DNA of 43,851 bases from Sphaerochaetaceae bacterium (GTDB lineage Bacteria > Spirochaetota > Spirochaetia > Sphaerochaetales > Sphaerochaetaceae): assembly GCA_028532915.1 (NCBI GenBank), contig JAQQAI010000033.1:1-43851 (forward strand), in the 5' to 3' direction. Position numbers and translations under genes: made by a program. Within the stretch, counting starts at the first letter, position 1. The number at the start of each line of letters is the position of its first letter. The notes below the pieces were generated by a model. It searched no databases and was not told the origin of the DNA. It saw only the letters and a list, made by a program, of their open reading frames with translations. Positions 5,201 to 42,771 of this stretch are shown here, one piece after another.

Positions 5201-5274
<74 letters not shown>

Positions 5275-5281
5275 AAGAAAG

Positions 5282-5310
5282 GGTTGCTGGTTACACAGCA
5301 GCCTTTTTTT
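5282..5310 (+). terminator. Intrinsic terminator of tRNA-Ala
   Basis: An 8-bp stem (5282-5289 with 5296-5303, one G-U pair) and a 6-nt loop are followed by seven Ts at 5304-5310, starting 8 nt after the tRNA. Confidence 0.9.
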
Positions 5311-5390
5311 ATTTTACTATCCTTTCCCATCCGATTATCTTATCCTTTATTTATAATCTCGTTCCAAAAAAGAACAAAGGAGGAAGAGAT

Positions 5391-6884: not shown

Positions 6885-6885
6885 G

Positions 6886-7953: not shown

Positions 7954-7973
7954 ATTACCTCCATATTGTGTTT

Positions 7974-8003
7974 ATTATAGCCGTTGTTTATTTGAAAATA
8001 CAA
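7974..8003 (-). promoter_or_regulatory. Promoter of the yedE operon
   Basis: On the minus strand a perfect TATAAT (7979-7974) lies 18 bp after TTGTAT (8003-7998), 20 bp before the yedE start. The leader would be very short. Confidence 0.55.
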
Positions 8004-8039
8004 TGGGATTTTTCACAATTTTGTGTTACCCTTTTATGT

Positions 8040-9188: not shown

Positions 9189-9204
9189 GAGCGGAGGATG
9201 AAAA

Positions 9205-12880: not shown

Positions 12881-12881
12881 A

Positions 12882-13691
12882 TTATTCTCCATTGTCGGTC
12901 AATCCGTTTTGATACAGGTCATAGAAATGATGGGTCGGGCCGCATCCTTTTCCTATGTCCTGAGCATGAGCGATAGCGCCTGTCACATACTTTTTTGCAT
13001 CGGCAACTGCCTGATCGTATGGTTTTCCCAGAGCGAGATTCGCTCCAATCGCCGATGAGTAGGTACATCCTGTTCCGTGAGTGTTTTTCGTATCTATCCG
13101 TTTTTCCGAGTAAAGCCTCACTTGTCTCCCGTCAAACAAGAGGTCTACGGCATCGCCGGTGAGGTGTCCTCCTTTGACCAGAACGTATCGGGGTCCATAT
13201 CCGTGCAGGATCCGTGCGGCCTTTTCCATATCTTCAACCGAACTGATGCTCATGCCGGTCAGTATCTGGGCTTCCGGGATGTTGGGAGTAAGCACATCGG
13301 CCAACGGGAGGATATGGTCGATCAGGGACTTACCGAGACTGCTGTCCATCAAAGGAAAGCCGTTTTTCGCGATCATCACCGGGTCAACTACGACATTTCG
13401 GCACTTCCATTTTTTCAACTGGGAAGCGACTGTCTTCATTACTCTCTCTGAAGGCAGCATTCCGATTTTTACTGCATGGACAGCAATATCCTCGAACACG
13501 GATTCACACTGAGAAGCAATCATCCTTGAAGTGATTTCCTGTGCTCCTATCACCCGGGTGGTATTCTCTGCTACGACAGAGACGATCACGCTCATCCCGT
13601 ATACGCCATGAGCCGCAAATGTTTTCAGGTCAGCCTGAATACCGGCGCCGCCGCTGCAGTCAGATCCTGCGATCGTCAGAACATGTTTCAT
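12882..13691 (-). CDS. thiD: Hydroxymethylpyrimidine / phosphomethylpyrimidine kinase
   Basis: A 269-residue ribokinase-fold enzyme that phosphorylates HMP and HMP-P. The N-terminal IAGSDCSGGAGIQADLK (about residues 7-23) binds the pyrimidine, and THGTGCTYSSA near residue 210 is the catalytic anion hole. First gene of the thiD-thiM-cytX-thiE operon. Its AAGGAGG ribosome site and the first base of its ATG lie inside a 14-bp hairpin that follows the second TPP riboswitch, so its translation is probably regulated. Confidence 0.94.
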   Translation of the reverse strand: MKHVLTIAGSDCSGGAGIQADLKTFAAHGVYGMSVIVSVVAENTTRVIGAQEITSRMIASQCESVFEDIAVHAVKIGMLPSERVMKTVASQLKKWKCRNVVVDPVMIAKNGFPLMDSSLGKSLIDHILPLADVLTPNIPEAQILTGMSISSVEDMEKAARILHGYGPRYVLVKGGHLTGDAVDLLFDGRQVRLYSEKRIDTKNTHGTGCTYSSAIGANLALGKPYDQAVADAKKYVTGAIAHAQDIGKGCGPTHHFYDLYQNGLTDNGE

Positions 13692-24126: not shown

Positions 24127-26274
24127 TTATTTGACCGATATGACTGCGATATCATGGTATTCGAGCAGAGGTATGAATAGTTCGGTGATACCGTCTTCAA
24201 CCTTGAATTCGAGTTTTTCACCACGGGGCTGCAATACAGCATCTTTTACTTCATATCCGCTGATTCTCACTTTCGTATTATGAGTCGGGATGATCTTCTG
24301 AATAAGCTCTCTGGTTTCGATATAGCTTTCACCGCCGAAAATATGATCTCTGGACAGCATCGGCTTGCCTTCCGAGAATGAAATACCTTTATTTGCCTGT
24401 CCGTTCACCATATGCACATAGAGGGTATCTTCAGTTTCAAAGGTTGTCACTTCTACGAGAGCATCCTGTACAACTTCTACTTTAAGCTCTTTTCTCATCG
24501 TCGTCACAATTGCATTATGCATGATAGTTTTCAGTTCAGGAAAACTGGTGATCAGATAGTTCTTCTCTATCTCCCCGCAGAAATAGACACACCTTCCTTT
24601 TCCGAAATCATTTACGACACAGGCGGTTTCATCCGTATACACGGCAGGTGGATTTGCCATCGAGTTGATGAATCTGTCGTCACTCGGTTCGGTATAGGGA
24701 TATACGACAGTCGCTGCGGCTTTACCTGTCGTCAATTCGACCTTCTGCGATACGCCCCAGTTCGTCATCATTCCGTCTTCACTGGTATTCTTTCCGATTT
24801 CGCTAGTATTATCATATTTATGGAATACTCTTGAGTAGCTTCCGGTATCATCGATTCGAGAAGCCCCGAAGACATCACTGAGTCTGAAATTCTGCAGTGG
24901 TGAACCTTCACAGTCACATAATGAGGTAGATCCGCTGGCAACAAGTCCGCCGCCATCTTTCACGAAAGACCGGATCTGGTCGCATTCGGTTTCCGATAGA
25001 CAGGCTACGTTGGGTAGAATCAGCGTATCATATTTTGAAAGCGTCTTTTCATTGGTGTCGACTATGATGTTATAGTCGATCTTCAGCTCGGTGAGAGCCC
25101 TGAAGATACCGTACAGATGAGCTTTCACATCGGGAGTTCTTGAATGCCGCCCGTACCATACCATCGTATCTTCACTGTATAAGACGGCTACCTGCGCCGC
25201 ACTTTTCCCTTTATTGCTCCAGGGAACTCTCTTTTGAATCTCGTTGAACACGATTCTGTGGCGGTCCCACATCTCTTTCTGCAGTGTCCCGTCAGGCCAC
25301 ATGATATCGTGATAATGAACTGCACATGCATTCGCCAGGACAGTGAATGATTCGTATCTTATCTGATCGAGTGTCTTCATATTTGGAGCATCGTTATGTG
25401 TCCCCGGTCTGGTCATAAACCCGATCTCGGGCAGATTCTTACAGAGAGTCTTGCAGATTTTGCTTATCGCACTGATTGGAAGATATCCGTGCTCCCAGTA
25501 AATGTCGCTGTAAATAAAATCGGAAAATCTTGCAATCTCGAGGTTCTGGGAATTCATACCCCTGTCCTTAAGGAGCTGATACTGGGGATAGAGAACCACA
25601 TCATCTTTGACCTTTCTGACCTCATCGAAGATCTCTTTGATGAATGTCTCGTTGCTCTTCCTTCTGAATCTGATGTAGTTTCTGAAAACAGGATCATTGA
25701 AATCTTCTTTTTCGGGAATATCGGACCGGTACTGCGCCTTGAATTTTCTTCTGCAGTTCTCACAGTAGCAGATCTTATCGGAGAAGAAGGCCATATCGAG
25801 CAGCATCCCGTCTATATCTCTCATCTCGAACAGTTTTCTCACCATGTATTTGATGTATTCTCTGTACGGACTGTTCATGCACACGACTTTCTCTGCACCT
25901 ACAGAAAGAGGCTTTCCGTCTTTTCCGACCTGCCTCCAATCGGGATGCATATCATACTGGTCCTTGTCGTAGACTGCGGTGAAATAAGCTATGATGATCT
26001 TATCGGTATTCTTTCTGAAATAATCGATGCTCTGCTGCAGCTGGTCGACACCATTGAGTCCCGGCATCATCTTTCCGAATCCCAGGTCAGTGTACCAGTA
26101 TCCTGTGAACGTCCGGGCTGTCACTATCACCGCTTCAGCGTCCTGATCATCTAAGGTTTTGATAAAATTCTGAATATCATACCGTTCAAGTATTCTGGTT
26201 TCCCACCCCTCATAATGCTGACTAATATAGGAACGACAATAGCTTTCGTTCATCCGTTCTAAGACACTAGACAT
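24127..26274 (-). CDS. GHL6-type putative glycoside hydrolase with beta-galactosidase-like trimerisation domain
   Basis: A 715-residue cytoplasmic protein with no signal peptide. Residues 1-340 look like a TIM barrel of the hypothetical glycosyl hydrolase 6 / GH42-like type, with VIVTARTFTGYWYTDLG near the start and DIDGMLLDMAFFSD at about 154-167, then a Cys pair CYCENC. Residues 360-560 resemble the class-I glutaminase-like trimerisation domain (LYSEDTMVWYG, YDTLILPNVACLS, VKDGGGLVASG). The rest is a small beta domain. Substrate unknown. It diverges from the TRAP operon and shares an operator-like sequence with it. GGAGGG precedes the ATG. Confidence 0.75.
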   Translation of the reverse strand: MSSVLERMNESYCRSYISQHYEGWETRILERYDIQNFIKTLDDQDAEAVIVTARTFTGYWYTDLGFGKMMPGLNGVDQLQQSIDYFRKNTDKIIIAYFTAVYDKDQYDMHPDWRQVGKDGKPLSVGAEKVVCMNSPYREYIKYMVRKLFEMRDIDGMLLDMAFFSDKICYCENCRRKFKAQYRSDIPEKEDFNDPVFRNYIRFRRKSNETFIKEIFDEVRKVKDDVVLYPQYQLLKDRGMNSQNLEIARFSDFIYSDIYWEHGYLPISAISKICKTLCKNLPEIGFMTRPGTHNDAPNMKTLDQIRYESFTVLANACAVHYHDIMWPDGTLQKEMWDRHRIVFNEIQKRVPWSNKGKSAAQVAVLYSEDTMVWYGRHSRTPDVKAHLYGIFRALTELKIDYNIIVDTNEKTLSKYDTLILPNVACLSETECDQIRSFVKDGGGLVASGSTSLCDCEGSPLQNFRLSDVFGASRIDDTGSYSRVFHKYDNTSEIGKNTSEDGMMTNWGVSQKVELTTGKAAATVVYPYTEPSDDRFINSMANPPAVYTDETACVVNDFGKGRCVYFCGEIEKNYLITSFPELKTIMHNAIVTTMRKELKVEVVQDALVEVTTFETEDTLYVHMVNGQANKGISFSEGKPMLSRDHIFGGESYIETRELIQKIIPTHNTKVRISGYEVKDAVLQPRGEKLEFKVEDGITELFIPLLEYHDIAVISVK

Positions 26275-26580: not shown

Positions 26581-27600
26581 ATGAAAAAACTTTTGGTTTT
26601 ATTGCTCGTTCTTATCATGTCGGCAGGGTTCGTCTTCGCAAACGGTCAGGAGGAAGCTGCGGCCGATGAAAAACCTGTGTTCCACTGGAAATATGCTCAC
26701 ATGAATGCTGAAGCCAACCAGTCTGGACAGATGGCAATCTGGTTCTGCGAGAGACTCGAAGAGCTCACAGACGGTGGAATCCAGACGAAGATCTACCCCA
26801 ACTCTCAGCTCGGTTCAATGATCGAACAGCTCGAGATGGTAGCTACAGGAACAGTTCAGTTCCACCACGACACATGGGGAAATCTCGGATCACTGGTAGA
26901 CGAACTTCAGGCTTTCGATACACCGTATCTGGCAAAATCGGTAGAAGATTATGTCAAACTGAACTCGCCAGAAAGCCCGATCTTCCAGGAGGCAAATGAG
27001 AAATTCATCAATCAGGCCGGAGTAAGACTACTCGGATCTACATATGGTGGAGCCCGCTGTCTCACTTGTAACTTCCCCATCTACTCTCCCGATGATCTCA
27101 AAGGTGTGAAGATCCGTGCTATCCCGGCTCCGATCTACGTGACTGCTGTAGAAGGAATGGGTGCAATTGCTGTACCTGTTGACTGGGTCGACGTACCTGC
27201 AGCTCTCTCTACCGGTGTTGTCGAAGGTCAGGAGAATCCCCCTTCAACAATGTATGCTGTAAGAATGCAGGATATGCAGAAGTACATGATGGATACCAAG
27301 CATATCGCAGCAATCGGTCCTATGATGGTCAACGAAGAGGCATTCCAGTCTCTGCCTGCCGATTATCAGGAAGCAGTATTGCAGGCTGGACGTGAAACCG
27401 CCGAGAAATTCACTGAACAGGGTATCAGAGAAGAGCAGGAGATCATCCAGAAACTCATTGATGAAGGAATGACATTCATCACAGCAGAAGATGGATTGGA
27501 TGTGGATGCATTCAAGGCAAGCGTTGACAAGAAAGTAGCAGAGAACTTCCCTCAGTATGCTGATTTCTACGCTGAAGTAAAAGAGTATCTCGGATACTGA
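26581..27600 (+). CDS. dctP: TRAP transporter substrate-binding protein (DctP type)
   Basis: A 339-residue secreted protein. The signal peptide ends after VFA at about residue 20 and the mature start is NGQEEAAAD, typical of spirochaetes. The DctP signature is seen in YPNSQLGS and in DDLKGVKIRAIP, whose Arg normally pairs with the ligand carboxylate, then STGVVEGQENPPST. The ligand is therefore expected to be acidic (a sugar acid, dicarboxylate or sulfonate). A strong AGGAG box precedes the ATG. Confidence 0.92.
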   Translation: MKKLLVLLLVLIMSAGFVFANGQEEAAADEKPVFHWKYAHMNAEANQSGQMAIWFCERLEELTDGGIQTKIYPNSQLGSMIEQLEMVATGTVQFHHDTWGNLGSLVDELQAFDTPYLAKSVEDYVKLNSPESPIFQEANEKFINQAGVRLLGSTYGGARCLTCNFPIYSPDDLKGVKIRAIPAPIYVTAVEGMGAIAVPVDWVDVPAALSTGVVEGQENPPSTMYAVRMQDMQKYMMDTKHIAAIGPMMVNEEAFQSLPADYQEAVLQAGRETAEKFTEQGIREEQEIIQKLIDEGMTFITAEDGLDVDAFKASVDKKVAENFPQYADFYAEVKEYLGY

Positions 27601-27621
27601 TTGATTCACAACGTATGAACC

Positions 27622-27654
27622 TGTAGAGGATCGTCTTTCCGGCGGTCCTCTACA
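27622..27654 (+). other. Intercistronic hairpin after the TRAP binding-protein gene
   Basis: A 12-bp stem with one G-U pair (27622-27633 with 27643-27654) and a 9-nt loop, without a following U-run. It fills the gap between dctP and dctQ and probably stabilises dctP mRNA. Confidence 0.7.
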
Positions 27655-27674
27655 TTGAAAAGGATAAATTGATT

Positions 27675-28184
27675 ATGCAAACAAAACCAGAAAAGCTGTT
27701 CGAACAAGTCTTTTCCGTATATGCAAAAATACAGATTGCCTGCCTGATACTGATTACGGTTCTGCTGTTCGGACAGGTTATAATCCGCGAGGTCTTCAGT
27801 ATAGGACTCCAGTGGGTATATGAACTTTCCTGTATGCTGCAGGTCACAATGATCTGGCTCGGACTTCCGTCTCTGCTCTATCACGGGGAGGATATCAAGA
27901 TAACTGTCTTATATGATATAGCTCCTCCGATGATCAAGAAGGGATTGAAGATCCTATCCTACCTGGTAATCCTCTCCAGTGTGATAATGATTTCAGCCGG
28001 ATATGTGATGTATATGGACAAACTTGCTTTCACAAAGAGTGCGGCGATGAGAATGCCGAACTACCTTTTCTTCGGAGCTTTCCCGTTCGGGATCATCATG
28101 ATCATTCTGGTTCTCATCTTCAAGACCAAATCGATGCTGCAGATGGATAGTTCTGCCGACCTGAATACAGGAGATGCAAAATGA
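27675..28184 (+). CDS. dctQ: TRAP transporter small membrane subunit (DctQ type)
   Basis: A 169-residue, four-helix protein with the DctQ pattern: an early long helix, then VIIREVFSIGLQWVYELS and a central MIWLGLPSLL, with charged HGEDIKI following. The ATG at 27675 has AAAAGGA 10 nt upstream. It overlaps dctM by ATGA. Confidence 0.88.
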   Translation: MQTKPEKLFEQVFSVYAKIQIACLILITVLLFGQVIIREVFSIGLQWVYELSCMLQVTMIWLGLPSLLYHGEDIKITVLYDIAPPMIKKGLKILSYLVILSSVIMISAGYVMYMDKLAFTKSAAMRMPNYLFFGAFPFGIIMIILVLIFKTKSMLQMDSSADLNTGDAK

Positions 28185-29461
28185 GCGGATATGTTGTACT
28201 AGGATTATTTTTCGGCCTGATCTTCCTCGGAGTTCCGGTCGCTTACACACTGATATTCTCATCAGGTCTCTTTCTGATATTCAGCGATATGTCGTTGCTG
28301 ACACTCATGCAGAGAATGGGCGGATCGATGAATTCGATCACACTGCTGGCCGTTCCAACCTTCATCTTCGCAGGATGGATCATGAACCACGGAGGACTTA
28401 CCAATGCCCTGTTCTCGGCGGTCAATACGTCCCGTATCTGCCGTGCAAAAGGAGGTCTCGCCTACGTAAATGTCATCGCGAGTCTGATCTTCGCAGGAAT
28501 GTCGGGAGCCGCTCTGGCCGACCTCGGCGGATTGGGAAACATCGAAATGACGGCCATGAAGGAAAACGGATATAAGGATGAGGATGCTTTGGGGATCACC
28601 CTTGCCTCTTCGGCTATCGGTCCGATATTCCCGCCGAGCATCCCGTTGCTGGTATATGCTCTCATTGCCTCGGTTTCGGGTATCAAGATCCTGATAGCAG
28701 GTATCGTTCCCGGTGTCCTTTTGACTGTGACTTTGATGATCATCATCACGCTCAATGCACGAAGAAAGAACTACCCGAAAGGAAATGTAGATATCAGCAA
28801 AAAAGAGAAACGATCTATTCAGCTGCACAGCATCCCTGCCATGTTTGCTCCGATCATTCTTCTCGGCGGGCTGTTCTCAGGATTCTACAGTCCTTCAGAA
28901 CTTGCATGTGTTGCAGTTGTCTATTCGTTCGTGGTGGGTAAATTCTTCTATAAGAAGGTCACCTACAAAAATTTCATAAGTTCGGCAAGAGAAACTACCA
29001 CGATGATCTCAAATACGATGTTCATCCTTGCAGGAGCTACCGTCTTTGCATTTGTTCTTACAGTCGAACAGATTCCTCAGTCTCTTGTCGTTCTTCTCGG
29101 ATTCGTTGCCGACAGTAAGGTCCTGCTCATCATCATGATCAATGTGATTCTTCTCATCGTCGGTATGGTACTCGATACAGGAACGGCTACTCTCGTTTTC
29201 ACTCCGATCTTCCTTCCGCTTCTCAAATCGGTCGGTATGGATCCCATCCAGGTCGGTATCTTCATCTGTCTGAACCTGGTCATCGGTCTGTATACACCAC
29301 CGTTCGGAGTCTGTCTGTTCATGGCATCAACGATGTCCGAAAAGCCTATCGAGAAAGTCGTGAAGGCAGTAGCACCCTACTATATACCATTGTTCGCAGT
29401 GCTCCTGCTCGTCTCTTTCTGGCCGCCATTGAGCATGTGGCTGCCTTCTGTACTGGGATAA
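28181..29461 (+). CDS. dctM: TRAP transporter large membrane subunit (DctM type)
   Basis: A 426-residue, about twelve-helix permease of the DctM/SiaM group. Typical segments are AVPTFIFAGWIMNHGG, FAGMSGAALADLGGLG, IPPSIPLL-like FPPSIPLLVYAL and TPPFGVCLFMAS. It uses the Na+ gradient to take ligand from the binding protein. Translationally coupled to dctQ. Confidence 0.92.
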   Translation: MSGYVVLGLFFGLIFLGVPVAYTLIFSSGLFLIFSDMSLLTLMQRMGGSMNSITLLAVPTFIFAGWIMNHGGLTNALFSAVNTSRICRAKGGLAYVNVIASLIFAGMSGAALADLGGLGNIEMTAMKENGYKDEDALGITLASSAIGPIFPPSIPLLVYALIASVSGIKILIAGIVPGVLLTVTLMIIITLNARRKNYPKGNVDISKKEKRSIQLHSIPAMFAPIILLGGLFSGFYSPSELACVAVVYSFVVGKFFYKKVTYKNFISSARETTTMISNTMFILAGATVFAFVLTVEQIPQSLVVLLGFVADSKVLLIIMINVILLIVGMVLDTGTATLVFTPIFLPLLKSVGMDPIQVGIFICLNLVIGLYTPPFGVCLFMASTMSEKPIEKVVKAVAPYYIPLFAVLLLVSFWPPLSMWLPSVLG

Positions 29462-29472
29462 GAGGCGTATAA

Positions 29473-30351
29473 ATGAATGATATATCGAACTGCAGATCAT
29501 TTCTCTATGTACCATGTAATCAGCAAAAATACATGGAGAAGATCCCTTCCACCACCTGTGATGCGGTCATCTTCGATCTTGAAGATTCGGTGAGGTTGGC
29601 GGACAAGAAACAGGCCAGAAAGAATCTGCTCGGATTCGGTTTCGAAATCGTTCGAAAAGCCCGGGAGAAGGTCTTTCTTGTACGGGTCAATGCTGTTGAC
29701 AGCACCTTCGCCGAAGATGATATCAGGGCGGCCGTCTCGCTGAAAGCAGACGGTATCGTCCTTCCAAAATCTACTGCCCGACAGGTCGAATCTGCAGATA
29801 CGATCATTCAGAACTCGGTTGATGACGGACAGGATTTCGTCATCATCCCTCTTATAGAAACGGCGTTGGGAGTCCAGACCATCTGGGAGACTGTCAATGC
29901 TTCACCGAAAGTGAAAGGGGCTCAGTTCGGAGCTGAGGATTTCACTCGAGATATCCAGGTCGAGAGGACTGCTTCAGGTAAAGAGATCGAATATGCGCGA
30001 AATAGAATGACAATCGCATGCAGAGCAAAGAACATTGCTGCGATAGACACTCCGTTCGCCAATTTCAAAGATCCCGAAGGTCTTGCAGAAGATACCAGAA
30101 ATGTGAAGAGCATGGGAATGACAGGGAAGACCTGCATTCATCCTTCACAAATAGATGTAGTGAATTCGGTATTCACTCCGTCCGAGAAGGAAGTATCCAG
30201 GGCACGGAAGATCGTGAACTGCTGGGAAAACCACGGCAGTATCAATGACGGGGTCATCGTGATTGAAGGAGAAATGGTTGATAGGCCTATATATCAAAGA
30301 GCTAAGAATTTATTAGAAAAATACAATAAAAAAAAGGAGAATGTAGTTTAA
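29473..30351 (+). CDS. HpcH/HpaI-family lyase, CitE-like
   Basis: A 292-residue TIM-barrel enzyme like the citrate lyase beta subunit and malyl- or citramalyl-CoA lyases. Seen are FLYVPCN (10-16), FDLEDSV (34-40), the substrate-binding Arg71 in RVNA, Glu129 in IPLIETALG and Asp156 in GAEDF as Mg2+ ligands, and KTCIHPSQ near the C-terminus. It should split (or form) a 3-hydroxyacyl-CoA, releasing acetyl-CoA or a similar unit and a 2-oxoacid or glyoxylate. No citrate lyase alpha or acyl-carrier subunits are near, so it acts alone. Starts 11 nt after dctM. Confidence 0.85.
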   Translation: MNDISNCRSFLYVPCNQQKYMEKIPSTTCDAVIFDLEDSVRLADKKQARKNLLGFGFEIVRKAREKVFLVRVNAVDSTFAEDDIRAAVSLKADGIVLPKSTARQVESADTIIQNSVDDGQDFVIIPLIETALGVQTIWETVNASPKVKGAQFGAEDFTRDIQVERTASGKEIEYARNRMTIACRAKNIAAIDTPFANFKDPEGLAEDTRNVKSMGMTGKTCIHPSQIDVVNSVFTPSEKEVSRARKIVNCWENHGSINDGVIVIEGEMVDRPIYQRAKNLLEKYNKKKENVV

Positions 30352-30376
30352 TATTGATAAAGGGAGTTTCTATAAT
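30348..30376 (+). promoter_or_regulatory. Internal promoter before the GntR gene
   Basis: TTAATA (30348-30353) and a perfect TATAAT (30371-30376) are spaced by 17 bp. It overlaps the end of the lyase gene and gives a 60-nt leader, allowing the regulator and later genes to be expressed apart from the TRAP genes. Confidence 0.5.
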
Positions 30377-30440
30377 ACTCATAGATACGTTTGGTTGATA
30401 TACAATTTTATAAATTTTGTGCTACATTGGAGAGACAAAG

Positions 30441-31148
30441 ATGGGAACAAGAAGAAAGAAAACTTACGAGTATGCTATTGATGCAATCAAAGATCTTCTC
30501 ATACGCGGAGAGATCTGTGAAGGTGAGAAGCTGCCAAATCAGGTAGAATTTGCTCGTCAGTTGGGTGTCAGCAGACTTTGTCTCAGAGAAGCTCTGACGG
30601 AACTGGAATCAATCGGTGTCATCGAACAGAAGCCGAAACGGGGAACGATCATCGTCAGCGGTGATCCGAGCAAATGGGTTCCGCCCGTCGAAGCTCCTCT
30701 GATCTCCGATGCCGATGCATTGTATGAACTGATCGAATCCAGAAAGGTTATCGAAGTGGCCATCACCAAACAGGCAGCTATCAACATCACCGATGATCAG
30801 CTCGATCAACTCGAAAAGATCATCACTCAGATGATGGTGTTTCATGTAAACGGTGATGAGTCCGAGTACAGTAAGATAGATATGGAGTTCCACCTGATCA
30901 TTGCACAGGCGGCAAACAACCGATATCTGCTGAATATGTACATGACCACCGTCGTCCTCATGGAGAAACTGATCAACGAAATCAACCAGAACATTCCCGA
31001 TATCATTAAGAACTCGAAACGGACTCACCAGAAGATCTACGAATCACTGAAGGTGAGAGATCAGAAGATGGCGGCAAAATGGACGAAGGTCCATATCGAC
31101 CGTGTGTGGGAATACTACACAAAATACTATCTGAAAGAATCGGACTGA
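30441..31148 (+). CDS. GntR-family regulator, FadR/FCD subgroup
   Basis: A 235-residue regulator. The winged helix is at about 5-75 (FARQLGVSRLCLREALTELE, then the wing VIEQKPKRGTIIV), followed by an all-helical FCD domain with the metal/ligand residues in DMEFHLIIAQAANN and a later THQKIYESL and KVHIDRV. FCD regulators commonly bind carboxylic acids, in line with a TRAP substrate. The ATG at 30441 is chosen because GGAGAG lies 7 nt before it. Probably controls this cluster through the repeats at 26339 and 26496. Confidence 0.9.
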   Translation: MGTRRKKTYEYAIDAIKDLLIRGEICEGEKLPNQVEFARQLGVSRLCLREALTELESIGVIEQKPKRGTIIVSGDPSKWVPPVEAPLISDADALYELIESRKVIEVAITKQAAINITDDQLDQLEKIITQMMVFHVNGDESEYSKIDMEFHLIIAQAANNRYLLNMYMTTVVLMEKLINEINQNIPDIIKNSKRTHQKIYESLKVRDQKMAAKWTKVHIDRVWEYYTKYYLKESD

Positions 31149-31233
31149 ACAGGTTTCCTGAATTCCGTTTGCGAGTGAATACAGCAGCATAATTCCACGT
31201 TATTAACACATACCTGCAAGGAGGATTGTATAC

Positions 31234-32610
31234 ATGAAAAATGAAGATGTGAATGAACTGATAAGAAGGTCCCGCTCTGCACTGAAGCAGATTGAAAACT
31301 ATAATCAGAAACAGGTCGATACTCTGGTCTCTGCTATAGGATGGGCCGGTGTACAGAAAGAGAATATGGAGAGGATCGCCCGAAAGGGGATGGATGAGAC
31401 CCGTCTGGGAACGTTCGAAGGCAAATACAACAAGATGTCTTTCAAGATCAGAGGGATCATGAGAGATATGAAAGGCGCAAAAACTGTCGGCATTATTGAG
31501 GAGGATGAAGCAAAGGGGCTTGTAAAGATTGCTAAGCCGCTTGGTGTCATCGGAGCTCTGGTTCCATGTACAAACCCCTGTGTTACACCATTTCTCAAAG
31601 CCATGTGGGCGATCAAGAGCAGAAACAGTATCATCTTCTCTCCCCATCCCCGATCGAAAGAGACGAACACCATGGTATGCACACTGATTCAGGATGTCCT
31701 GGAACAGTACGGAGCTCCCAGGGATCTTGTTCTCTTCATCGAGAACCCCTCGGTTCCTATGAGCAGCGAACTGATGAGCTGCTGCGACACGGTTATAGCT
31801 ACCGGTGGAAGCGCCATGGTGAAAGCCGCCTACAGCTCGGGCACTCCGGCTTACGGTGTCGGAGTCGGAAATGCGATGGTCATCGTTGATGAGACTGCAG
31901 ACTATGCTCAATATGCAGCCGAGATAGGTATCGGTCAGCAGAATGATAATTCAACCGGATGTTCAACAGAAAACGGGATCATCGTACACAATTCAATCTA
32001 TGAGAACATGGTCGCAGCTCTCGAACAGGAGGGAGCTTATATAGTCTCCGACGAAGAGAAAAAGAAACTCGAACAGACTCTTTGGGTAAACGGTATTCTC
32101 AACCGCAACATCGTAGGACAATCAGCTGCGACAATTGCAGATATGGCAGGCATAGCAGACGGGAAAAACCCGAAATTCCTCGTAGTTCCTGAAAATGATT
32201 GCAGTGTTCAAAGTAAATTCACCACTGAAAAACTGTCGCCGGTCCTTACCATTTATTCATATGAAAATTTTGATGATGCCATTAAAATGCTCAACGACAT
32301 TCAGAGCCGGTGCGGTGCGGGTCATTCCTGCGGGATTTACTCTACCGATGAGGAAAGAATCATGAAAGTTGCCATGCAGACCAGAACGTCACGTGTGATG
32401 GTCCGTCAGTCTACAGGATTGGGTAATGCCGGTTCATGGGAGAACGGGATGCCGGTGACAGCAACGCTGGGATGCGGGTCCTGGGGTGGAAACAGTATCA
32501 GCGAGAATGTGAATCACAGGTTCTTCTATAACGTGACCTGGGTCTCGAAGAAAATTAAAAAGGAGATAGTCCCGGACGAGGTTCTATTTGCCGATTCACT
32601 GGAAAAATAA
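31234..32610 (+). CDS. CoA-acylating aldehyde dehydrogenase, sulfoacetaldehyde dehydrogenase (SauS)-like
   Basis: A 458-residue enzyme of the EutE/AdhE-N family that turns an aldehyde, NAD(P)+ and CoA into an acyl-CoA. The catalytic cysteine is Cys243 in NDNSTGCSTENG, and KPLGVIGALVPCTNP lies at 101-115. By recall the pattern (WA..EN.. near the N-terminus, DN.T.CS.EN at the active site) is closest to the acylating sulfoacetaldehyde dehydrogenase branch. Related members use succinate semialdehyde or propanal. No microcompartment targeting extension or shell genes are seen, so it works free in the cytoplasm. The exact aldehyde is not established. Confidence 0.82.
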   Translation: MKNEDVNELIRRSRSALKQIENYNQKQVDTLVSAIGWAGVQKENMERIARKGMDETRLGTFEGKYNKMSFKIRGIMRDMKGAKTVGIIEEDEAKGLVKIAKPLGVIGALVPCTNPCVTPFLKAMWAIKSRNSIIFSPHPRSKETNTMVCTLIQDVLEQYGAPRDLVLFIENPSVPMSSELMSCCDTVIATGGSAMVKAAYSSGTPAYGVGVGNAMVIVDETADYAQYAAEIGIGQQNDNSTGCSTENGIIVHNSIYENMVAALEQEGAYIVSDEEKKKLEQTLWVNGILNRNIVGQSAATIADMAGIADGKNPKFLVVPENDCSVQSKFTTEKLSPVLTIYSYENFDDAIKMLNDIQSRCGAGHSCGIYSTDEERIMKVAMQTRTSRVMVRQSTGLGNAGSWENGMPVTATLGCGSWGGNSISENVNHRFFYNVTWVSKKIKKEIVPDEVLFADSLEK

Positions 32611-32644
32611 ACAATAGAGTTATACAGATTATCAGGATGGACTA

Positions 32645-33310
32645 ATGAAGAAGATTTTTACAATTTACACAAGCACGGCTCTTATCGAACCGGTCAACAG
32701 CAACGTGAGCACCTACCTCAAGGATGTTGAGATCATCAATTTCCTCGATGACAGCATCATCAAGGAGGTAATCGCAAACAACAGAGCCACCGATGGGGTG
32801 TTATCCAGGATGGAACGCTATTACAAGATCGCAGAAGAGATCGGATCCGATATCATCTGGCAGACATGCTCGTCGATGGGCGACACCGTAGATATGTTTC
32901 AGCCGTCAATTTCCATCCCGATCATCCGAATCGACGAACAGATGGCCCGCAACGCAGTCGAACAGCTCGACAGGATCGCTGTCCTTGCGACGCTTCCGAC
33001 CACATTGGGCCCCACCATCACCCTGGTCAAAAAGATAGCAAAAGAAATGAATAAGGATATTACGATCATCGACGGTCTTGCAGAAGGCGCCTTCGATGCC
33101 CTTCAGGCGGGAAATCCCGATAAGCATGATGAGATGATCGTCGCGAAGGCTGTTGCACTCAAAGATGAATGTGACGGGTACGTCCTCGCTCAGGGATCGA
33201 TGGCCAGAGTCTCACAGCAGATCATCGATAAATCACAGAAGCCGGTGTTCACATCTCTGGAATCCGGTTTCAAGGCATTAGCCGAATTCATAGAAAACAT
33301 GGAGAATTGA
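32645..33310 (+). CDS. Asp/Glu racemase-superfamily protein with one catalytic cysteine
   Basis: A 221-residue two-lobe protein of the Asp/Glu/hydantoin racemase family. The first-lobe cysteine is present (Cys75 in WQTCSSMGD). At the place of the second-lobe cysteine the sequence reads LAQGSMAR (181-188), so no thiol is available there. True two-base racemases need both. It may be a decarboxylase, isomerase or lyase, like arylmalonate decarboxylase, which also keeps only one cysteine. Sits 34 nt after the aldehyde dehydrogenase and 4 nt before the transketolase. Confidence 0.78.
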   Translation: MKKIFTIYTSTALIEPVNSNVSTYLKDVEIINFLDDSIIKEVIANNRATDGVLSRMERYYKIAEEIGSDIIWQTCSSMGDTVDMFQPSISIPIIRIDEQMARNAVEQLDRIAVLATLPTTLGPTITLVKKIAKEMNKDITIIDGLAEGAFDALQAGNPDKHDEMIVAKAVALKDECDGYVLAQGSMARVSQQIIDKSQKPVFTSLESGFKALAEFIENMEN

Positions 33311-33314
33311 AGCG

Positions 33315-34124
33315 ATGGAAAACTTACAGAAAATCGCCAATGGACTGAGAGCAGATGTGCTTGATATGGTAGTTGAAATAAAGGACGGTCATCCCGGCCC
33401 CGCTTTCTCTGCCGCCGATATCATCACTGCCCTCTATTTCGGCGGACACATTCATATCGATCCTGAAAATCCCGACTCGCCGGACCGCGACCGGTTCGTC
33501 CTCTCGAAAGGTCATGCCTGCCCTCTTTTGTATGCTGCACTGATCAGGAAGGGAGTCATCGATAAAAAACATAAGCTCACTCTGAGAAAGATCGATTCGA
33601 TCCTTCAGGGACATCCTGATATGATAAAGACACCGGGAGTCGATGCGAATTCAGGGTCGCTGGGAAACGGACTGGCAATGGCTTATGGAATGGCTAATGC
33701 GCTTAAGCTGCAAAAGTCATCCCGCTATGTCTACGTCATCTGCGGAGATGGAGAACTGGGAGAAGGGATCACCTGGGAGACGTTCATCAATATCGGCAAA
33801 TCTCAGATGAAGAATATGATCGTCTTCATAGACAACAACCGCTGGCAAAGCGGTGGCTCCATCACCGATGTAGGAGGAATCGGCAGCCTCAAAGAGAAGT
33901 TTGAAGCCTGCTCGCTTCAGGTGATTGAAATCGACGGTCATAATTTTACCCAGATATTTGAAGCTGTCGCTGCAGCCAAAGAATCAAATAAAGCGACTGT
34001 AGTGATAGCGCATACGATAAAAGGAAAAGGTGTCGATTTCATGGAAGAAGATAATTCCTGGCATAAAAGGGTACCGACTGCGCAGCAGTATGAGAGCGCA
34101 CTCAGACAGTTGAGAGGAGAATGA
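33315..34124 (+). CDS. Transketolase, N-terminal (TPP-binding) subunit
   Basis: A 269-residue subunit with the TPP/Mg2+ motif GDGELGEG (144-151) to DNN (173-175), GHPGPAFSAADI (25-36) and SKGHACPLLY (64-73). Split transketolases are common in archaea, Firmicutes and spirochaetes, and several have special substrates (apulose-4-phosphate, sulfofructose). Being inside a catabolic operon rather than with pentose-phosphate genes suggests such a special role. The stop overlaps the partner gene by 4 nt. Confidence 0.9.
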   Translation: MENLQKIANGLRADVLDMVVEIKDGHPGPAFSAADIITALYFGGHIHIDPENPDSPDRDRFVLSKGHACPLLYAALIRKGVIDKKHKLTLRKIDSILQGHPDMIKTPGVDANSGSLGNGLAMAYGMANALKLQKSSRYVYVICGDGELGEGITWETFINIGKSQMKNMIVFIDNNRWQSGGSITDVGGIGSLKEKFEACSLQVIEIDGHNFTQIFEAVAAAKESNKATVVIAHTIKGKGVDFMEEDNSWHKRVPTAQQYESALRQLRGE

Positions 34125-35059
34125 TGATGGCAGAAATTACTACAAGAAGAGCCGTGAGTGAAGGCCTTCTGAAACTCATGGAATCAGATGAAAGAGTCGT
34201 TCTGGTCTCATCCGATTCGGTAGGAGTGATCAAGGCTCAGGATATCGTCGAACGATACCCAGACAGAGTTATCGAAGTGGGAATCGCAGAACAGCTCGCC
34301 GTCGATACTGCAGCCGGTCTTGCAGCTGCCGGGATGAAACCATTCTATGTGACCTATGCGGTGTTCGCTTCCATGAGAGCATGTGAGCAGGTTCGCTCGA
34401 TGGTCGCATACCCCCATCTGAATGTGAAGATCATAGGAGCAAACGGAGGAATGGGATCGGGAGAAAGAGAAGGGGTCTCTCATCAATGTTTCGAAGATAT
34501 CGGGATATTCAGAACCTTTGCAGGTATGACGATCCTCTCCCCTTCTGATGCATCTCAGGTCGAAAAGGCGATCATCGCCGCATCCGAAATAGACGATCCT
34601 GTCTATATCAGAACAGGAAGCGGAAAAGAAATAGCCCTGTGGGATGATGAAGAGCCGTTCGAGATAGGAAAGACCATCGTCCGCAAAGAGGCGGACAGTG
34701 ATGTAGTTCTGTTCTCTCACGGCTTTATCATGCGCGAAGTGATGAAGGCCGCCGGGGAACTCGAGAATGAAGGAAAGAGCGTGAAGGTTGTAGAAGTTCC
34801 CACGATCAAACCTCTGCCGCAGGAGGCTATCCTGCAGCATGTCGAAGGAGCTGCCAACGTGGCCGTGGTCGAAGACCATTCTGTGTATGGAGGACTCTCT
34901 TCTGCGATAAGTGAACTTCTTTCCCGCACCGACCCGAAGAAGATCACCACTGTCGCACTGCAGGATACCTTCCCTGAATCGGGTTCTGCTGCCGAGCTTT
35001 TCAGCAAATATAAGATGGATAGCAAAGCGATAAAAGAAAAACTGCTGACGATCATGTAA
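34121..35059 (+). CDS. Transketolase, C-terminal subunit
   Basis: A 312-residue partner. Glu57 in VGIAEQLAVD is the glutamate that activates TPP. The pyrimidine-binding and C-terminal domains follow, with GGMGSGEREGVSHQ at about 107-120 and the third domain from about 180. Three ATGs in a row (34121, 34124, 34127) share the GGAG box; any could be used. Confidence 0.9.
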   Translation: MMMAEITTRRAVSEGLLKLMESDERVVLVSSDSVGVIKAQDIVERYPDRVIEVGIAEQLAVDTAAGLAAAGMKPFYVTYAVFASMRACEQVRSMVAYPHLNVKIIGANGGMGSGEREGVSHQCFEDIGIFRTFAGMTILSPSDASQVEKAIIAASEIDDPVYIRTGSGKEIALWDDEEPFEIGKTIVRKEADSDVVLFSHGFIMREVMKAAGELENEGKSVKVVEVPTIKPLPQEAILQHVEGAANVAVVEDHSVYGGLSSAISELLSRTDPKKITTVALQDTFPESGSAAELFSKYKMDSKAIKEKLLTIM

Positions 35060-35093
35060 TGATCAGAAAACCGAAATATTTTGGAGGAAAAAT

Positions 35094-36512
35094 ATGAAAA
35101 ATACATGGAAAGCCTGGGATAAGGACGAGAATAAGAGATTCATCATCCTTACAGATATGGAAAATGAACCTGATGACTCTCAGACTATGGTCAAACTGCT
35201 GATGTATTCCAACGAGATCGATATCGAAGGGCTGATCGCAGTCACTTCCTGCTGGCTGCAGAACGATGTTTTCCCGGAATCGATCGAAGACCGGATCGAA
35301 GCGTACAATATCGTCAGACCGAATCTGGAGAAACATGCGAAGGGATGGCCTACCAGAGAAGAGCTGATGTCGGTTGTCGCCGGTGGACAGGTAGGGTTCG
35401 GGATGGATGCCGTCGGAGACGGCAAATCAACCAAGGGCTCCGATTTGATCATCAAGGCTGTCGATAAAGATGATCCGAGACCAATCTATTTTTCGATCAA
35501 TGCAGGAGCAAATACACTTGCTCAGGCTTTGTGGGATGTGAAAAGAGACCGCAGCGCTGAAGAAGTAAAGAAGTTCGTATCAAAATTGAGAGTCTATGAT
35601 GATTCCGGTCAGGATAATGCCGGAGCATGGATCGCATACACATTCCCTGAACTGTTCTATGTGAGAAACTATCCTCAGGTCTACTCTCTGTTCGGACCGG
35701 AGCTCAATCAGGGACCGCAGCCGTGGAAACCGCTGAATCAGTATCAGTGGGCAGAGAAGAATATAAGAACCCGCCATGGAGTTCTGGGAGCTCTCTATCC
35801 GCAGAGAATCATCTTCAGCGAGAAGATCAGAGAAGGAAGCTGCTGGTTCTGGTTCATGGACGGTGGCGGTACTACCGGTGTTATCGGACTGGTGAACAAG
35901 GGCCTGTATGATCCCGAAATGATCGAATGGGGCGGCTGGGGCGGCCGTTTCAGCAGAGAAAAACGGTTCATCGAAGCAGGTGAAAGCCTCTCGAGAAACG
36001 ATATCGACGAATCTGCTTATACTGATGCTCTCATGTACCCGTGTGCAGCTGACTCCTGGTATGACGAGGATGAAGATGTCGCATACGGTGAAGGGCTTTT
36101 CATCCCTCTGTGGAGATGGAGAAAAGATATCCTTCTCGACTTCCAGGCCAGAATGGACTGGTGTGTGAAACCATATGATCAGGCCAACCATCATCCCAGA
36201 GCTGTCGTCTTCGGTGATGATACCAGAACGATTCTCGAGATGGACTGTGAAGCTGGAACAACTGTCTCTCTGGACGGCTCGGCCTCCTATGATCCGGACG
36301 GCGATCCTCTCAGATACAAATGGTATCAGTACCCCGAAGCCGGAACATATAAAGGAAAGGTCCCGGTGAATAATGACAGAACATCTTCTTCCGAAGTAAT
36401 CATTCCAGAAGATGCAAAGGGAACGACTATTCATATCATCTTCGAGGTGGCTGATGAAAATCCCGTTGTCGCACTGAAGGCCTACAGAAGAATCATTTTG
36501 AACGTGAAATAA
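35094..36512 (+). CDS. DUF1593 nucleoside-hydrolase-like protein
   Basis: A 472-residue protein. The N-terminal domain (about 14-330) resembles inosine/uridine nucleoside hydrolases: the acidic metal-binding cluster is Asp21, Glu23, Glu25, Asp27 and Asp28 in LTDMENEPDD. The C-terminal part (about 385-472) is a small beta-sandwich with VSLDGSASYDPDGDPLRYKW, a PKD-like turn, as in Sde182-type proteins. Most relatives are secreted; this one has no signal peptide and should act in the cytoplasm. It probably hydrolyses a ribosyl-type or other glycosidic bond. GGAGG precedes the ATG. Confidence 0.8.
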   Translation: MKNTWKAWDKDENKRFIILTDMENEPDDSQTMVKLLMYSNEIDIEGLIAVTSCWLQNDVFPESIEDRIEAYNIVRPNLEKHAKGWPTREELMSVVAGGQVGFGMDAVGDGKSTKGSDLIIKAVDKDDPRPIYFSINAGANTLAQALWDVKRDRSAEEVKKFVSKLRVYDDSGQDNAGAWIAYTFPELFYVRNYPQVYSLFGPELNQGPQPWKPLNQYQWAEKNIRTRHGVLGALYPQRIIFSEKIREGSCWFWFMDGGGTTGVIGLVNKGLYDPEMIEWGGWGGRFSREKRFIEAGESLSRNDIDESAYTDALMYPCAADSWYDEDEDVAYGEGLFIPLWRWRKDILLDFQARMDWCVKPYDQANHHPRAVVFGDDTRTILEMDCEAGTTVSLDGSASYDPDGDPLRYKWYQYPEAGTYKGKVPVNNDRTSSSEVIIPEDAKGTTIHIIFEVADENPVVALKAYRRIILNVK

Positions 36513-36528
36513 GAATCACAGCATATTC

Positions 36529-36559
36529 AGGAAGTCCCGTTCTTTCATCGGGACTTCCT
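36529..36559 (+). terminator. Hairpin after the DUF1593 gene
   Basis: A perfect 11-bp stem (36529-36539 with 36549-36559) with a 9-nt loop, followed by CGTTTATC rather than a U-run. It begins 16 nt after the stop and may only partly stop transcription before the dehydrogenase. Confidence 0.6.
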
Positions 36560-36593
36560 CGTTTATCGTATGGATACAATAAGGAATAACAGA

Positions 36594-37550
36594 ATGAAAA
36601 TCGTCATACTCGACGCCTATGCATTGAATCCCGGTGATCTCAGCTGGGAAAGAATGGAAAGTCTCGGAGAAACTGTTATCTGGGACAGGACAGAAGAAAA
36701 AGATATCCTTTCGAGGTCTCGTGGGGCTCAGATACTCATAACGAACAAGACTCCTTTGTCTAAAGAGACCATCGAACAGCTGCCTGAACTGAAATATATC
36801 GGTGTGCTTGCAACCGGCTACAATGTGGTCGATATACAGGCGGCCTCCGAGAGAAACATCCCTGTCACAAACATCCCCACCTACGGCACGGACTCTGTGG
36901 CCCAGATGGTATTCGCCCATATCCTCCATCTTACCCAGCACGTCGCCGAGCATTCCGAGTCGGTGAAAGAAGGAGATTGGACGAACTGTCCGGACTTCTG
37001 CTACTGGAACTACCCGATGATCGAGCTGGCGGGAAAGACTATCGGGATCGTGGGATTCGGAAGAATAGGAAGGAAGGTTGCAGATATTGCCAATGTTTTC
37101 GGCATGAAAGTCCTCGCTTATGATGCATTTGCCGATTCGATGACGTCGACGGTCGCGACCTTCGTAGACCTTGATACACTCTTTTCCCAGTCCGATGTAG
37201 TGTCGCTGCACTGCCCTCTTTTCCCCGAGACTGAAGGTATCGTGAACGAACGGAATCTTTCAATGATGAAACGGTCGGCCTTCCTCATCAACACCAGCAG
37301 AGGTCCTCTTGTGAACGAAGAGGATCTGACAAAAGCGCTTAATGAGGGTACTATCGCGGCAGCCGGACTGGATGTGGTATCGACTGAACCGATCAAGAGT
37401 GACAACCCGCTGCCTGGCGCGAAGAACTGTTTCATCACTCCTCACATCGCATGGGCGACATTCGATGCAAGAAAGAGACTTCTTGATACCGCCGTGGATA
37501 ATGTAGAAGCTTTCCTGAAACATATCCCTGTGAATGTAGTCAATATGTAA
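36594..37550 (+). CDS. D-2-hydroxyacid dehydrogenase (glycerate dehydrogenase-like)
   Basis: A 318-residue NAD(P)H enzyme that interconverts a 2-oxoacid and a D-2-hydroxyacid. GFGRIG (154-159) binds the nucleotide, and the catalytic triad is Arg236 (TSRGPLV), Glu265 (STEP) and His284 (HIAWAT). The N-terminal NKTPL and GVLATGYNVVD blocks resemble hydroxypyruvate/glycerate dehydrogenases. The start at 36594 is preferred because AAGGA lies 9 nt before it; the ATG at 36570 has none. Its 3' end overlaps the flavoprotein gene by 11 nt. Confidence 0.88.
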   Translation: MKIVILDAYALNPGDLSWERMESLGETVIWDRTEEKDILSRSRGAQILITNKTPLSKETIEQLPELKYIGVLATGYNVVDIQAASERNIPVTNIPTYGTDSVAQMVFAHILHLTQHVAEHSESVKEGDWTNCPDFCYWNYPMIELAGKTIGIVGFGRIGRKVADIANVFGMKVLAYDAFADSMTSTVATFVDLDTLFSQSDVVSLHCPLFPETEGIVNERNLSMMKRSAFLINTSRGPLVNEEDLTKALNEGTIAAAGLDVVSTEPIKSDNPLPGAKNCFITPHIAWATFDARKRLLDTAVDNVEAFLKHIPVNVVNM

Positions 37551-40637: not shown

Positions 40638-41696
40638 TCAGAACGAGAACCCCAGTCCCGGCTTGTCATGCGGGTATACATATCCGTCTATGATCTTGAC
40701 AGCTTCGTAACTCGGATCATCGATGAATTCCACATGTCCGTCCAGATCCCCATAGAGCACGTTGGGGCTCGATAGTGCGAAATGCAGTGCCGCCGCGATT
40801 CCGAGACCCGCCTCATCCATACATCCGACCATCGTGCGGCTGTGCACGGAAGCTGCCACGGCATCAAGCTGCAGGGCCCTGCTGATTCCGCCGGTCTTCG
40901 CCAGTTTGATGTTGTACATATCGGCGCCACCGTAAGAGTGAAGACGCGAGACATCTTCTGGACCCAATACCGATTCATCCGCCATCACCGGTAACGAAGG
41001 ATTTCTGAGGATGCTGAATGCGGAGAGATTCTTCTTCGCACAAGGCTGTTCTATGAATTGTCCTCCCATCTCATGAAGAGCTGAAATGCACCGTTTGGCA
41101 TCTTCTATGCTGTATCCCTGATTCGCATCGAAGTAAATCTGCATTTCAGGTCCCACCTTTTCGCGAATCTTGAACAGCTTCTCCACATCCTCATCGATTG
41201 AGACTCCGCCTTTGATCTTAAGAGCCTTGTAGCCTCTTTTTTTCCATGAGAGCGCCCGTTTTACCACTTCATCGACACTGTTGATCCCGATAGTGATGCT
41301 GCTGAGCATCCTCGACCTCTTCGCTCCAAGCAGCCTGTACAAAGGAAGATCGGCCTTCTTTCCCAGTATGTCGTAGAGAGCCATATCGACCGAAGCGAGT
41401 GCTGTGGGATCTTTCGGCATCTTCGCATGTATTCTGTAGATCAGGTCGGTATAAGAAAGAGGGTCCTCTCCCAAAAGCATAGGGATAGCCACATCATGCA
41501 GGGCCCGCGAGACCGTATGTTCATTCTCGCCCGTGACTTCCTCATCGAAGGCACTGCAACCGAAACCGGAAATTCCTTCGTCTGTATCTATTCTGAGAAA
41601 ATAGTTTATCACGGAGTCTGTGGTACTGTAGGCAATGACAAAGGGTTCTTCAAGCGTAAGGCGCACCGGCCATACGTCGCATCCTGTAATCTTCAT
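40638..41696 (-). CDS. dgcA: Enolase-superfamily epimerase, DgcA-like (N-acetyl-D-glutamate racemase / dipeptide epimerase)
   Basis: A 352-residue MLE-type enolase. Catalytic lysines are Lys160 and Lys162 in KIKGG on one face and Lys264 in NIKLAKTGG on the other. Mg2+ ligands are Asp190 (FDANQGY), Glu216 (EQP) and Asp240 (ADES). Such enzymes are usually called L-Ala-D/L-Glu epimerases. Because the next gene upstream is the DUF1611/DgcN type, the better reading is DgcA, which turns N-acetyl-D-glutamate into the L form. A GAGGTGATC box precedes the ATG, 4 nt after dgcN. Confidence 0.85.
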   Translation of the reverse strand: MKITGCDVWPVRLTLEEPFVIAYSTTDSVINYFLRIDTDEGISGFGCSAFDEEVTGENEHTVSRALHDVAIPMLLGEDPLSYTDLIYRIHAKMPKDPTALASVDMALYDILGKKADLPLYRLLGAKRSRMLSSITIGINSVDEVVKRALSWKKRGYKALKIKGGVSIDEDVEKLFKIREKVGPEMQIYFDANQGYSIEDAKRCISALHEMGGQFIEQPCAKKNLSAFSILRNPSLPVMADESVLGPEDVSRLHSYGGADMYNIKLAKTGGISRALQLDAVAASVHSRTMVGCMDEAGLGIAAALHFALSSPNVLYGDLDGHVEFIDDPSYEAVKIIDGYVYPHDKPGLGFSF

Positions 41697-41700
41697 AAGA

Positions 41701-42771
41701 TCACCTCTCTTTCATCTTCTCTCTGATGAGCTCCACCAGAGGAGTCAGATCATCAACAAGGGGATCGAGTGTGATCAGATGTGTCTTTTCAGCAATCTTC
41801 GCACACTCGATGGCGATATCATCCTGACTGATCATCTCGTGATTGACCGTTACTGCTATCACCGGTTTTCCGCTAAGAAGACGTATTGCCTGAAGCTGTG
41901 TATCGAGAGGATGTATCTTCGCTCCGGGAATCCCGTCGTACTCGGTTCTCTTCGGAGAGTGCTGAACGACGATGGCATCAGGCTGTCCTGCAGAGAGGAT
42001 TTCCATCCCTCCCGGATAAAGGGGGTTCATCAGACTTCCCTGCCCTTCGATTATCATTACATCGGGACTCTGTTCATCCCAGGCCGAGAGGATCGCATGT
42101 TCGATCTCCCCTGCAACGAAATCATTGATCAGAGAATCCATTCTCACTCCGTAGCGTGCTCCCTGAAGCCAGGCAGTCTGTCCCGTTCCGATCATCTCGG
42201 TTCTGATTCCCGCTTCATTGAGAGCATCGGCAAGCTTCCATGCAGTGGTACGTTTTCCGACACAGGAATCGGTTCCCAGCAGTGCTATCCTGAAGGATCT
42301 CACTTCCCTGATTCGTCCGGTGTAACTGTGCAGCTCGTTTCTCGGAGGGATCTTTCTGATATCACGGATGACGACATTGTGCTTTTTCGCAGCTTCGACC
42401 ATTTGGGGGTCTTCAGAAAGGAAATAGTGGAGACCGCAATCGACGTTCAATCCGAGCGAAAGAGCATGAAGGATATCATCCCTCATTTTCTGAGTAAGCC
42501 GTCCTCCGTCGGTTGCGATACCGAAGACGAAGTGGGTTATCGGGTTACCGGCTTCTACGGCAGCTTCGACTGCCGAGTCGATACAGTCGTAGATAAGAAT
42601 ACCCGATTTCTTTCCGTCGAGATATTCTCCTGCATCCTTTCCCGCAAGTTTGCTGTCTATCACGCCGGCAACATCATAGCGTCTGGTAAACCGGACCAGA
42701 CCATGAGCTGTCTTTCCCCACATCGTATCAAAATGTTCATCACAATATACAAGAGCCACACCATCGGTCAC
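41701..42771 (-). CDS. dgcN: DUF1611-family protein, DgcN-like (D-glutamate N-acetyltransferase)
   Basis: A 356-residue protein with an N-terminal Rossmann-like domain (about 1-140) and a C-terminal P-loop domain with GTDSCVGKRT at 166-175, followed by GTGQTAWLQGARYG and VMIIEGQGSL. These are the marks of DUF1611, of which DgcN acetylates D-glutamate in the DgcN-DgcA route. The start is GTG at 42771 with GGAGGTG before it. Pairing with DgcA suggests a way to turn D-glutamate, for example from peptidoglycan, into L-glutamate. Confidence 0.83.
   Translation of the reverse strand: MTDGVALVYCDEHFDTMWGKTAHGLVRFTRRYDVAGVIDSKLAGKDAGEYLDGKKSGILIYDCIDSAVEAAVEAGNPITHFVFGIATDGGRLTQKMRDDILHALSLGLNVDCGLHYFLSEDPQMVEAAKKHNVVIRDIRKIPPRNELHSYTGRIREVRSFRIALLGTDSCVGKRTTAWKLADALNEAGIRTEMIGTGQTAWLQGARYGVRMDSLINDFVAGEIEHAILSAWDEQSPDVMIIEGQGSLMNPLYPGGMEILSAGQPDAIVVQHSPKRTEYDGIPGAKIHPLDTQLQAIRLLSGKPVIAVTVNHEMISQDDIAIECAKIAEKTHLITLDPLVDDLTPLVELIREKMKER

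Follow-up and report, generated by a model that had tools for sequence, protein, structure and literature searches.

Results

The acylating aldehyde dehydrogenase (ALDH) considered here is encoded in a 43,851-nucleotide stretch of a Sphaerochaetaceae bacterium genome (assembly GCA_028532915.1, contig JAQQAI010000033.1), the whole of which was analysed and is referred to below as the window. The 458-residue enzyme (31234-32610), identified by profiles, phylogeny, topology tests and residue signatures, belongs to a co-directional run of genes on the + strand at 26581-37550, with intergenic gaps of -4 to 85 bp. The run begins with a tripartite ATP-independent periplasmic (TRAP) transport system at 26581-29461, composed of a solute-binding protein, DctP (26581-27600; PF03480, 2e-59; the solved structures closest to it likewise belong to TRAP DctP proteins), a large permease, DctM (28181-29461), and between them a small permease, DctQ (27669-28184). 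A gene for a CitE-type CoA-thioester C-C lyase of the malyl-/citramalyl-CoA lyase superfamily (29473-30351) starts 11 bp after DctM and is followed by genes for a GntR/FCD regulator (30417-31148; PF00392 and PF07729), the ALDH, an Asp/Glu-racemase-fold enzyme (32645-33310; PF01177), and the N- and C-terminal subunits of a split transketolase, TKn (33315-34124; PF00456, 7e-48) and TKc (34121-35059; PF02779 and PF02780), whose reading frames overlap by 4 bp. Last come a nucleoside-hydrolase-like protein of the Sde182 family, a possible intracellular glycosidase (35094-36512; PF07632, 1.2e-82, and PF21027), and a D-2-hydroxyacid dehydrogenase (36570-37550; PF02826/PF00389; PRK06487 at 314 bits, under the cut-off of 448) that we propose to be a 2-oxo acid (glyoxylate) reductase. 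DUF1593 is not mentioned in the literature that we searched. An initial annotation had placed the ALDH and, one gene further on, the split transketolase exactly here, had drawn attention to TRAP transport, and had likened this set to the sulfo-transketolase pathway. It made no mention of the CitE-type lyase, in our view the most informative neighbour.

The best NCBIfam profile for the window ALDH is SauS (NF047625), and to that extent the enzyme does look most like the sulfoacetaldehyde branch, as had been stated; its score of 474.7 bits, however, lies under the curated cut-off of 600, and the protein does not qualify as SauS. Four plasmid ALDHs that adjoin CoA-ligase genes of the AMP-binding or SucCD type score 676-811 with the same profile. 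Since ALDHs whose partner genes are of quite another kind also reach ~475-562, the SauS resemblance of the window enzyme is generic. A scan of the genome contigs with the ALDH gave three matches, all unrelated.

Phylogenetic comparison with characterized enzymes, which the initial annotation had proposed, did not support the sulfonate reading. In the ALDH tree (64 acylating enzymes, PduP not among them), the SauS-type and SqwD-type enzymes formed separate clades, each fully supported, and the window ALDH fell outside both. Nor did it group with EutE or SucD; EutE and AdhE form long branches that were not used for fine placement, and EutE was excluded from the topology tests. Together with a 69%-identical relative from genome G313 (locus L092), the window enzyme clustered with other ALDHs whose genes neighbour a CitE-type lyase (support 91/87), and this group was adjoined by four of the five ALDHs partnered by lyases of the 3-hydroxy-3-methylglutaryl-CoA lyase (HMGL) type (94/74). 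Approximately unbiased (AU) tests rejected the alternatives: constraining the window pair with SqwD was 56 log units worse (p-AU 0.00011), with SauS 41 log units worse (p-AU 0.0003), and with both 64 log units worse (p-AU 1e-5).

Residues of the active site bear on the type of substrate. Cys243 was borne out as the catalytic cysteine, and His364 is also present. In Clostridium kluyveri SucD, the site that binds the ligand's distal carboxylate includes Lys70 and Ser243 (PMC10249356). These positions align with Lys71 and Ser244 of the window ALDH and are kept in nearly all anion-type branches, with Arg in place of Lys71 at loci L046, L050 and L093; their equivalents are replaced in AdhE and EutE. 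Conservation of Lys71 and Ser244 supports the view that the window enzyme handles an anionic aldehyde, although, from sequence, the pair cannot tell a carboxylate from a sulfonate. The residue directly before the catalytic cysteine, Gly242 in the window, is glycine in 10 of 10 ALDHs with a CitE- or HMGL-type lyase neighbour and in 0 of 52 others, partner-gene labels having been fixed before the residues were inspected. The corresponding Fisher p value of 9e-12 overstates the evidence, because the tree needs just two changes per trait. Gly395, aligned to a SucD pocket residue, follows the same trend (7 of 10 lyase-partnered enzymes, 0 of 52 others). Glycines at these positions may leave more room in the pocket for an acyl group that is larger and bears a hydroxyl.

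The CitE-type protein (PF03328, 5.5e-45) has citE and RipC as its best models (TIGR01588 at 195 bits, under the cut-off of 443) and can be aligned to the structures of malyl-CoA lyase and CLYBL. We regard it as a predicted CoA-thioester lyase of the CitE/RipC/CLYBL type, with use of CoA, as opposed to acyl carrier protein, and malyl-CoA specificity both putative. In a survey of partner genes that covered mostly one bacterial class, plus plasmids, a CitE-type lyase, a TRAP system and this ALDH branch occurred together in five genomes (the window, L092, L050, L093 and L046), and a complete split transketolase accompanied them in three of these (the window, L050 and L093). L092 is the only orthologous operon that came to light. 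It retains the ALDH, the CitE-type lyase, the TRAP genes (DctQ at 60% and DctM at 76% to the window proteins, as compared with 40-49% for DctM of other TRAP loci) and the Sde182 gene, and is otherwise conserved, except that it ends in a broken TKn remnant; no homologue of the 2-hydroxyacid dehydrogenase was found in it.

Related ALDHs have other partners elsewhere. On Shinella and Ponticoccus plasmids (L104 and L105) the ALDH gene is flanked by one gene annotated as iron-containing alcohol dehydrogenase and another annotated as HMG-CoA lyase, and TRAP genes are present as well; the Shinella lyase scores above the NCBIfam cut-off for HMG-CoA lyase, and L135 likewise combines an HMGL-type lyase, an iron-containing alcohol dehydrogenase and a TRAP system with this ALDH family. 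The three loci may serve a mevalonate-type catabolism. At L100 and L137 a SauS-like ALDH, a CoA-transferase, an HMGL-type lyase and a split transketolase form a single run. SauS-like ALDHs adjoin an MmdA-type carboxyltransferase and transaldolase-like, sometimes transketolase, genes at eight further loci (L031, L033, L034, L036, L040, L043, L136 and L148), which suggests a malonyl-CoA-type exit. A 48%-identical paralogue in the same genome, on contig C52, adjoins MmdA-type and transaldolase-like genes, and additional ALDH paralogues adjoin class-III aminotransferase genes.

The transketolase and the racemase-fold enzyme have their own relatives. The window transketolase falls within a clade (100/100) that is distinct from that of the SqwGH-type enzymes (100/100), contrary to its earlier likening to SqwGH. 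Its clade comprises transketolases of a conserved cassette (racemase, TKn, TKc, DctP, DctQ, DctM, transaldolase-like protein, cupin, GntR), recovered by racemase search and neighbourhood comparison in ~10 genomes (L094, L170, L171 and L173-L179), this genome included at contig C9; the cupin was verified by Pfam in four of them. The cassette possibly represents a uronate-like sugar acid route. Window and cassette share homologous TRAP genes (DctP at 42-47%), the racemase (41-48%), the transketolase subunits (43-61%) and the order racemase-TKn-TKc. They differ in the position of the TRAP genes, which precede the racemase in the window and follow it in the cassettes, and in that the CitE-type lyase, ALDH, Sde182 protein and 2-hydroxyacid dehydrogenase stand in place of the transaldolase-like and cupin genes, neither of which was detected by Pfam among the genes of the window operon. 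The racemase-fold protein, which gave no match in a PDB sequence search, has a single conserved cysteine (TCSS) in 14 of 14 aligned homologues and, further on, a strictly conserved AQGSM stretch containing a QGS motif. Because this stretch occupies what we take to be the position of the second cysteine in two-cysteine racemases, the protein is probably not a classical two-base racemase. At L169 (5957-11713) a racemase-transketolase pair adjoins apiosidase-like, BKACE and GH43 genes.

A complete sulfo-transketolase locus lies elsewhere in this genome (L032; contig C9, 387-10797), and the window is a different locus. Genes of the SqvD, SqvB, SqwI, SqwGH, SqwD and SqwKL types, components described previously (PMC9594981, PMC11659671, PMC12890257), are present there: a FucI-type isomerase (PF02952), DUF4867, an RpiB-type isomerase, a split transketolase, SucCD-type ligase genes and an ALDH that falls in the SqwD clade. 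A DASS-type transporter is encoded alongside them. DUF4867 occurs once in the genome and is absent from 14 control genomes. C9 thus appears to encode the oxidative, sulfoacetate-forming variant. Among the 30 window proteins scanned, Pfam matched no sulfo-sugar isomerase, DUF4867, RpiB-type isomerase or SucCD-type ligase, in agreement with the earlier remark that genes for a sulfo-sugar isomerase and a sulfoacetyl-CoA ligase are not nearby.

Elsewhere in the window, a GHL6/GH42M glycoside-hydrolase-like protein (24127-26274, - strand; PF14871 and PF08532) is encoded divergently from the operon, to which its membership is uncertain. Pyr_redox, Sulf_transp, class-V aminotransferase and AIRS (SelD-like) genes at 5229-10230 are possibly concerned with selenium or sulfur handling; a purine/thiamine-type permease with hydroxyethylthiazole kinase and phosphomethylpyrimidine kinase at 10858-13691 likely serves thiamine salvage; and a DUF1611 gene adjoins an MR_MLE enolase-superfamily gene at 40638-42771.

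Discussion

We propose that the operon at 26581-37550 degrades an imported carboxylated sugar, its identity putative, by way of transketolase, acylating ALDH and CitE-type lyase, a reading to which we give an even chance. Its observed basis is gene content, domain families, the conserved pairing of ALDH with CitE-type lyase, phylogeny and residue signatures; all substrates, the order of steps and the feeding of the ALDH by the transketolase are inferred. In this scheme the TRAP system would import a sugar acid, which the racemase-fold enzyme, perhaps with the Sde182 protein, would prepare. By moving two carbons as a ketol unit onto a phosphorylated acceptor, the split transketolase would leave a carboxylate-bearing hydroxy-aldehyde, which the ALDH, with NAD(P)+ and CoA, would convert to a 3-hydroxyacyl-CoA. 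The lyase would then release acetyl-CoA and a 2-oxo acid, whose reduction by the 2-hydroxyacid dehydrogenase would reoxidize the NADH formed by the ALDH and so restore the redox balance. If the CitE-type protein acts like its CoA-lyase relatives, family chemistry points to a 3-hydroxyacyl-CoA whose carbinol carbon bears a carboxylate, and hence to a 2-hydroxy-4-oxo acid as the preceding aldehyde, which the transketolase would free from a 3-deoxy-5-ulosonate. In the simplest case, 2-hydroxy-4-oxobutanoate would become malyl-CoA and the 2-oxo acid would be glyoxylate.

Several observations weigh against this proposal. The GntR gene separates the CitE-type gene from the ALDH gene (gaps of 65 and 85 bp), the grouping of CitE-partnered ALDHs is only moderately supported, and the association of Gly242 with a lyase amounts to about two independent origins. 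L046 carries the CitE-TRAP-ALDH module with a transaldolase-like gene and no transketolase. Above all, the TKn remnant of L092 (6110-6610) contains a deletion and TKc is missing, so that the transketolase may be separable from the ALDH and lyase; this weakens the claim that one feeds the other and is the main reason why our confidence is not higher.

It is accordingly conceivable, if rather unlikely, that two modules merely lie side by side: racemase and transketolase would process a single sugar acid after its import, in the manner of the cassettes with transaldolase-like and cupin genes, and the ALDH and CitE-type lyase would take their aldehyde from another enzyme. Both L092 and L046 fit such an arrangement, as do the racemase-transketolase-TRAP cassettes, which lack the ALDH in ~10 genomes including this one. 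L050 and L093, however, join a different split transketolase to TRAP, CitE-type lyase and ALDH, and the sulfo-transketolase loci, L100 and L137 likewise pair a split transketolase with this ALDH family. We consider it improbable that the PF03328 protein is instead an upstream aldolase that produces the aldehyde. The family does include HpcH/HpaI aldolases, and the ALDH at L038 adjoins a PF03328 gene that has no BLAST match to the window lyase; the window protein itself aligns with citrate-lyase-beta/RipC models and with the structures named above.

Carboxylated analogues of sulfoacetaldehyde had been listed as possible substrates, and a carboxylated substrate is now favoured, but hardly the malonate semialdehyde then suggested. 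Its conversion to malonyl-CoA, as the MmdA-adjoining paralogues may perform it, is brought to mind by the C52 enzyme; we think it very unlikely, as the operon lacks an MmdA-type gene by Pfam and the window ALDH lies outside the MmdA clade, whose members have Ser at the 242 position and mostly Cys or Ser at 395, where the window has glycines. Least probable of all is the sulfonate pathway first envisaged, with transketolase yielding sulfoacetaldehyde and ALDH yielding sulfoacetyl-CoA: SauS is the best profile and the anion-binding Lys and Ser would suit a sulfonate too, but the score, the AU tests and the transketolase clade contradict it, equivalents of SqwI, SqwKL, SqvD and SqvB were not found among the 30 window proteins although all are present at C9, and sulfoacetyl-CoA would not be expected as a substrate of a CitE-type lyase. 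What survives of the sulfo-transketolase analogy is its outline, in which a ketose acid passes through a split transketolase to an anionic aldehyde and an acylating dehydrogenase; that much is still plausible, while the sulfonate itself fails on phylogeny.

The proposed pathway resembles several known systems in part. With the oxidative sulfo-transketolase pathway (SqvD, SqwGH, SqwI, SqwD, SqwKL) it shares a split transketolase and an acylating ALDH of the same large family, but its two enzymes belong to other clades, isomerases and a SucCD-type ligase are lacking, and the exit is a CitE-type lyase. SauS has the catalytic Cys and His and the anion-binding Lys and Ser in common with the window ALDH, which differs in having Gly rather than Ser before the catalytic cysteine and no CoA-ligase partner. 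The closest solved structure by sequence, the succinyl-CoA reductase SucD of C. kluyveri (8CEI), belongs to a separate clade and has Ile in place of that glycine. The Shinella and Ponticoccus loci share TRAP import, a related Gly242 ALDH and a terminal retro-Claisen CoA lyase; there, however, the aldehyde would come from an alcohol dehydrogenase and not a transketolase, and the lyase has the HMGL rather than the CitE fold.

More tentatively, we suggest that the operon is a carboxylate counterpart of the sulfo-transketolase pathway, in which a hydroxy-dicarboxylic semialdehyde, cut by transketolase from a 3-deoxy-type sugar acid, would be turned into an acyl-CoA and split by a CitE-type retro-Claisen reaction into acetyl-CoA and glyoxylate. 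In that case several pathways of this bacterial class, the present one included, would have the acylating ALDH in common and differ in their exit, be it a CoA ligase, a decarboxylase, an HMG-type lyase or a CitE-type lyase. The literature that we searched offered nothing relevant on transketolase combined with malyl-CoA lyase, on transketolase/transaldolase uronate routes or on bacterial mevalonate catabolism. If the proposal is true, this would be a route for carboxylated sugars with one acetyl-CoA-yielding branch that is, as far as we could find, undescribed. Annotation by best profile would label the window ALDH and many of its paralogues 'sulfoacetaldehyde dehydrogenase-like' and so overstate sulfonate degradation; it may be possible to distinguish the sulfonate- and malonyl-type enzymes from the hydroxyacyl-type ALDHs by their neighbouring genes and by whether Gly or Ser precedes the catalytic cysteine.

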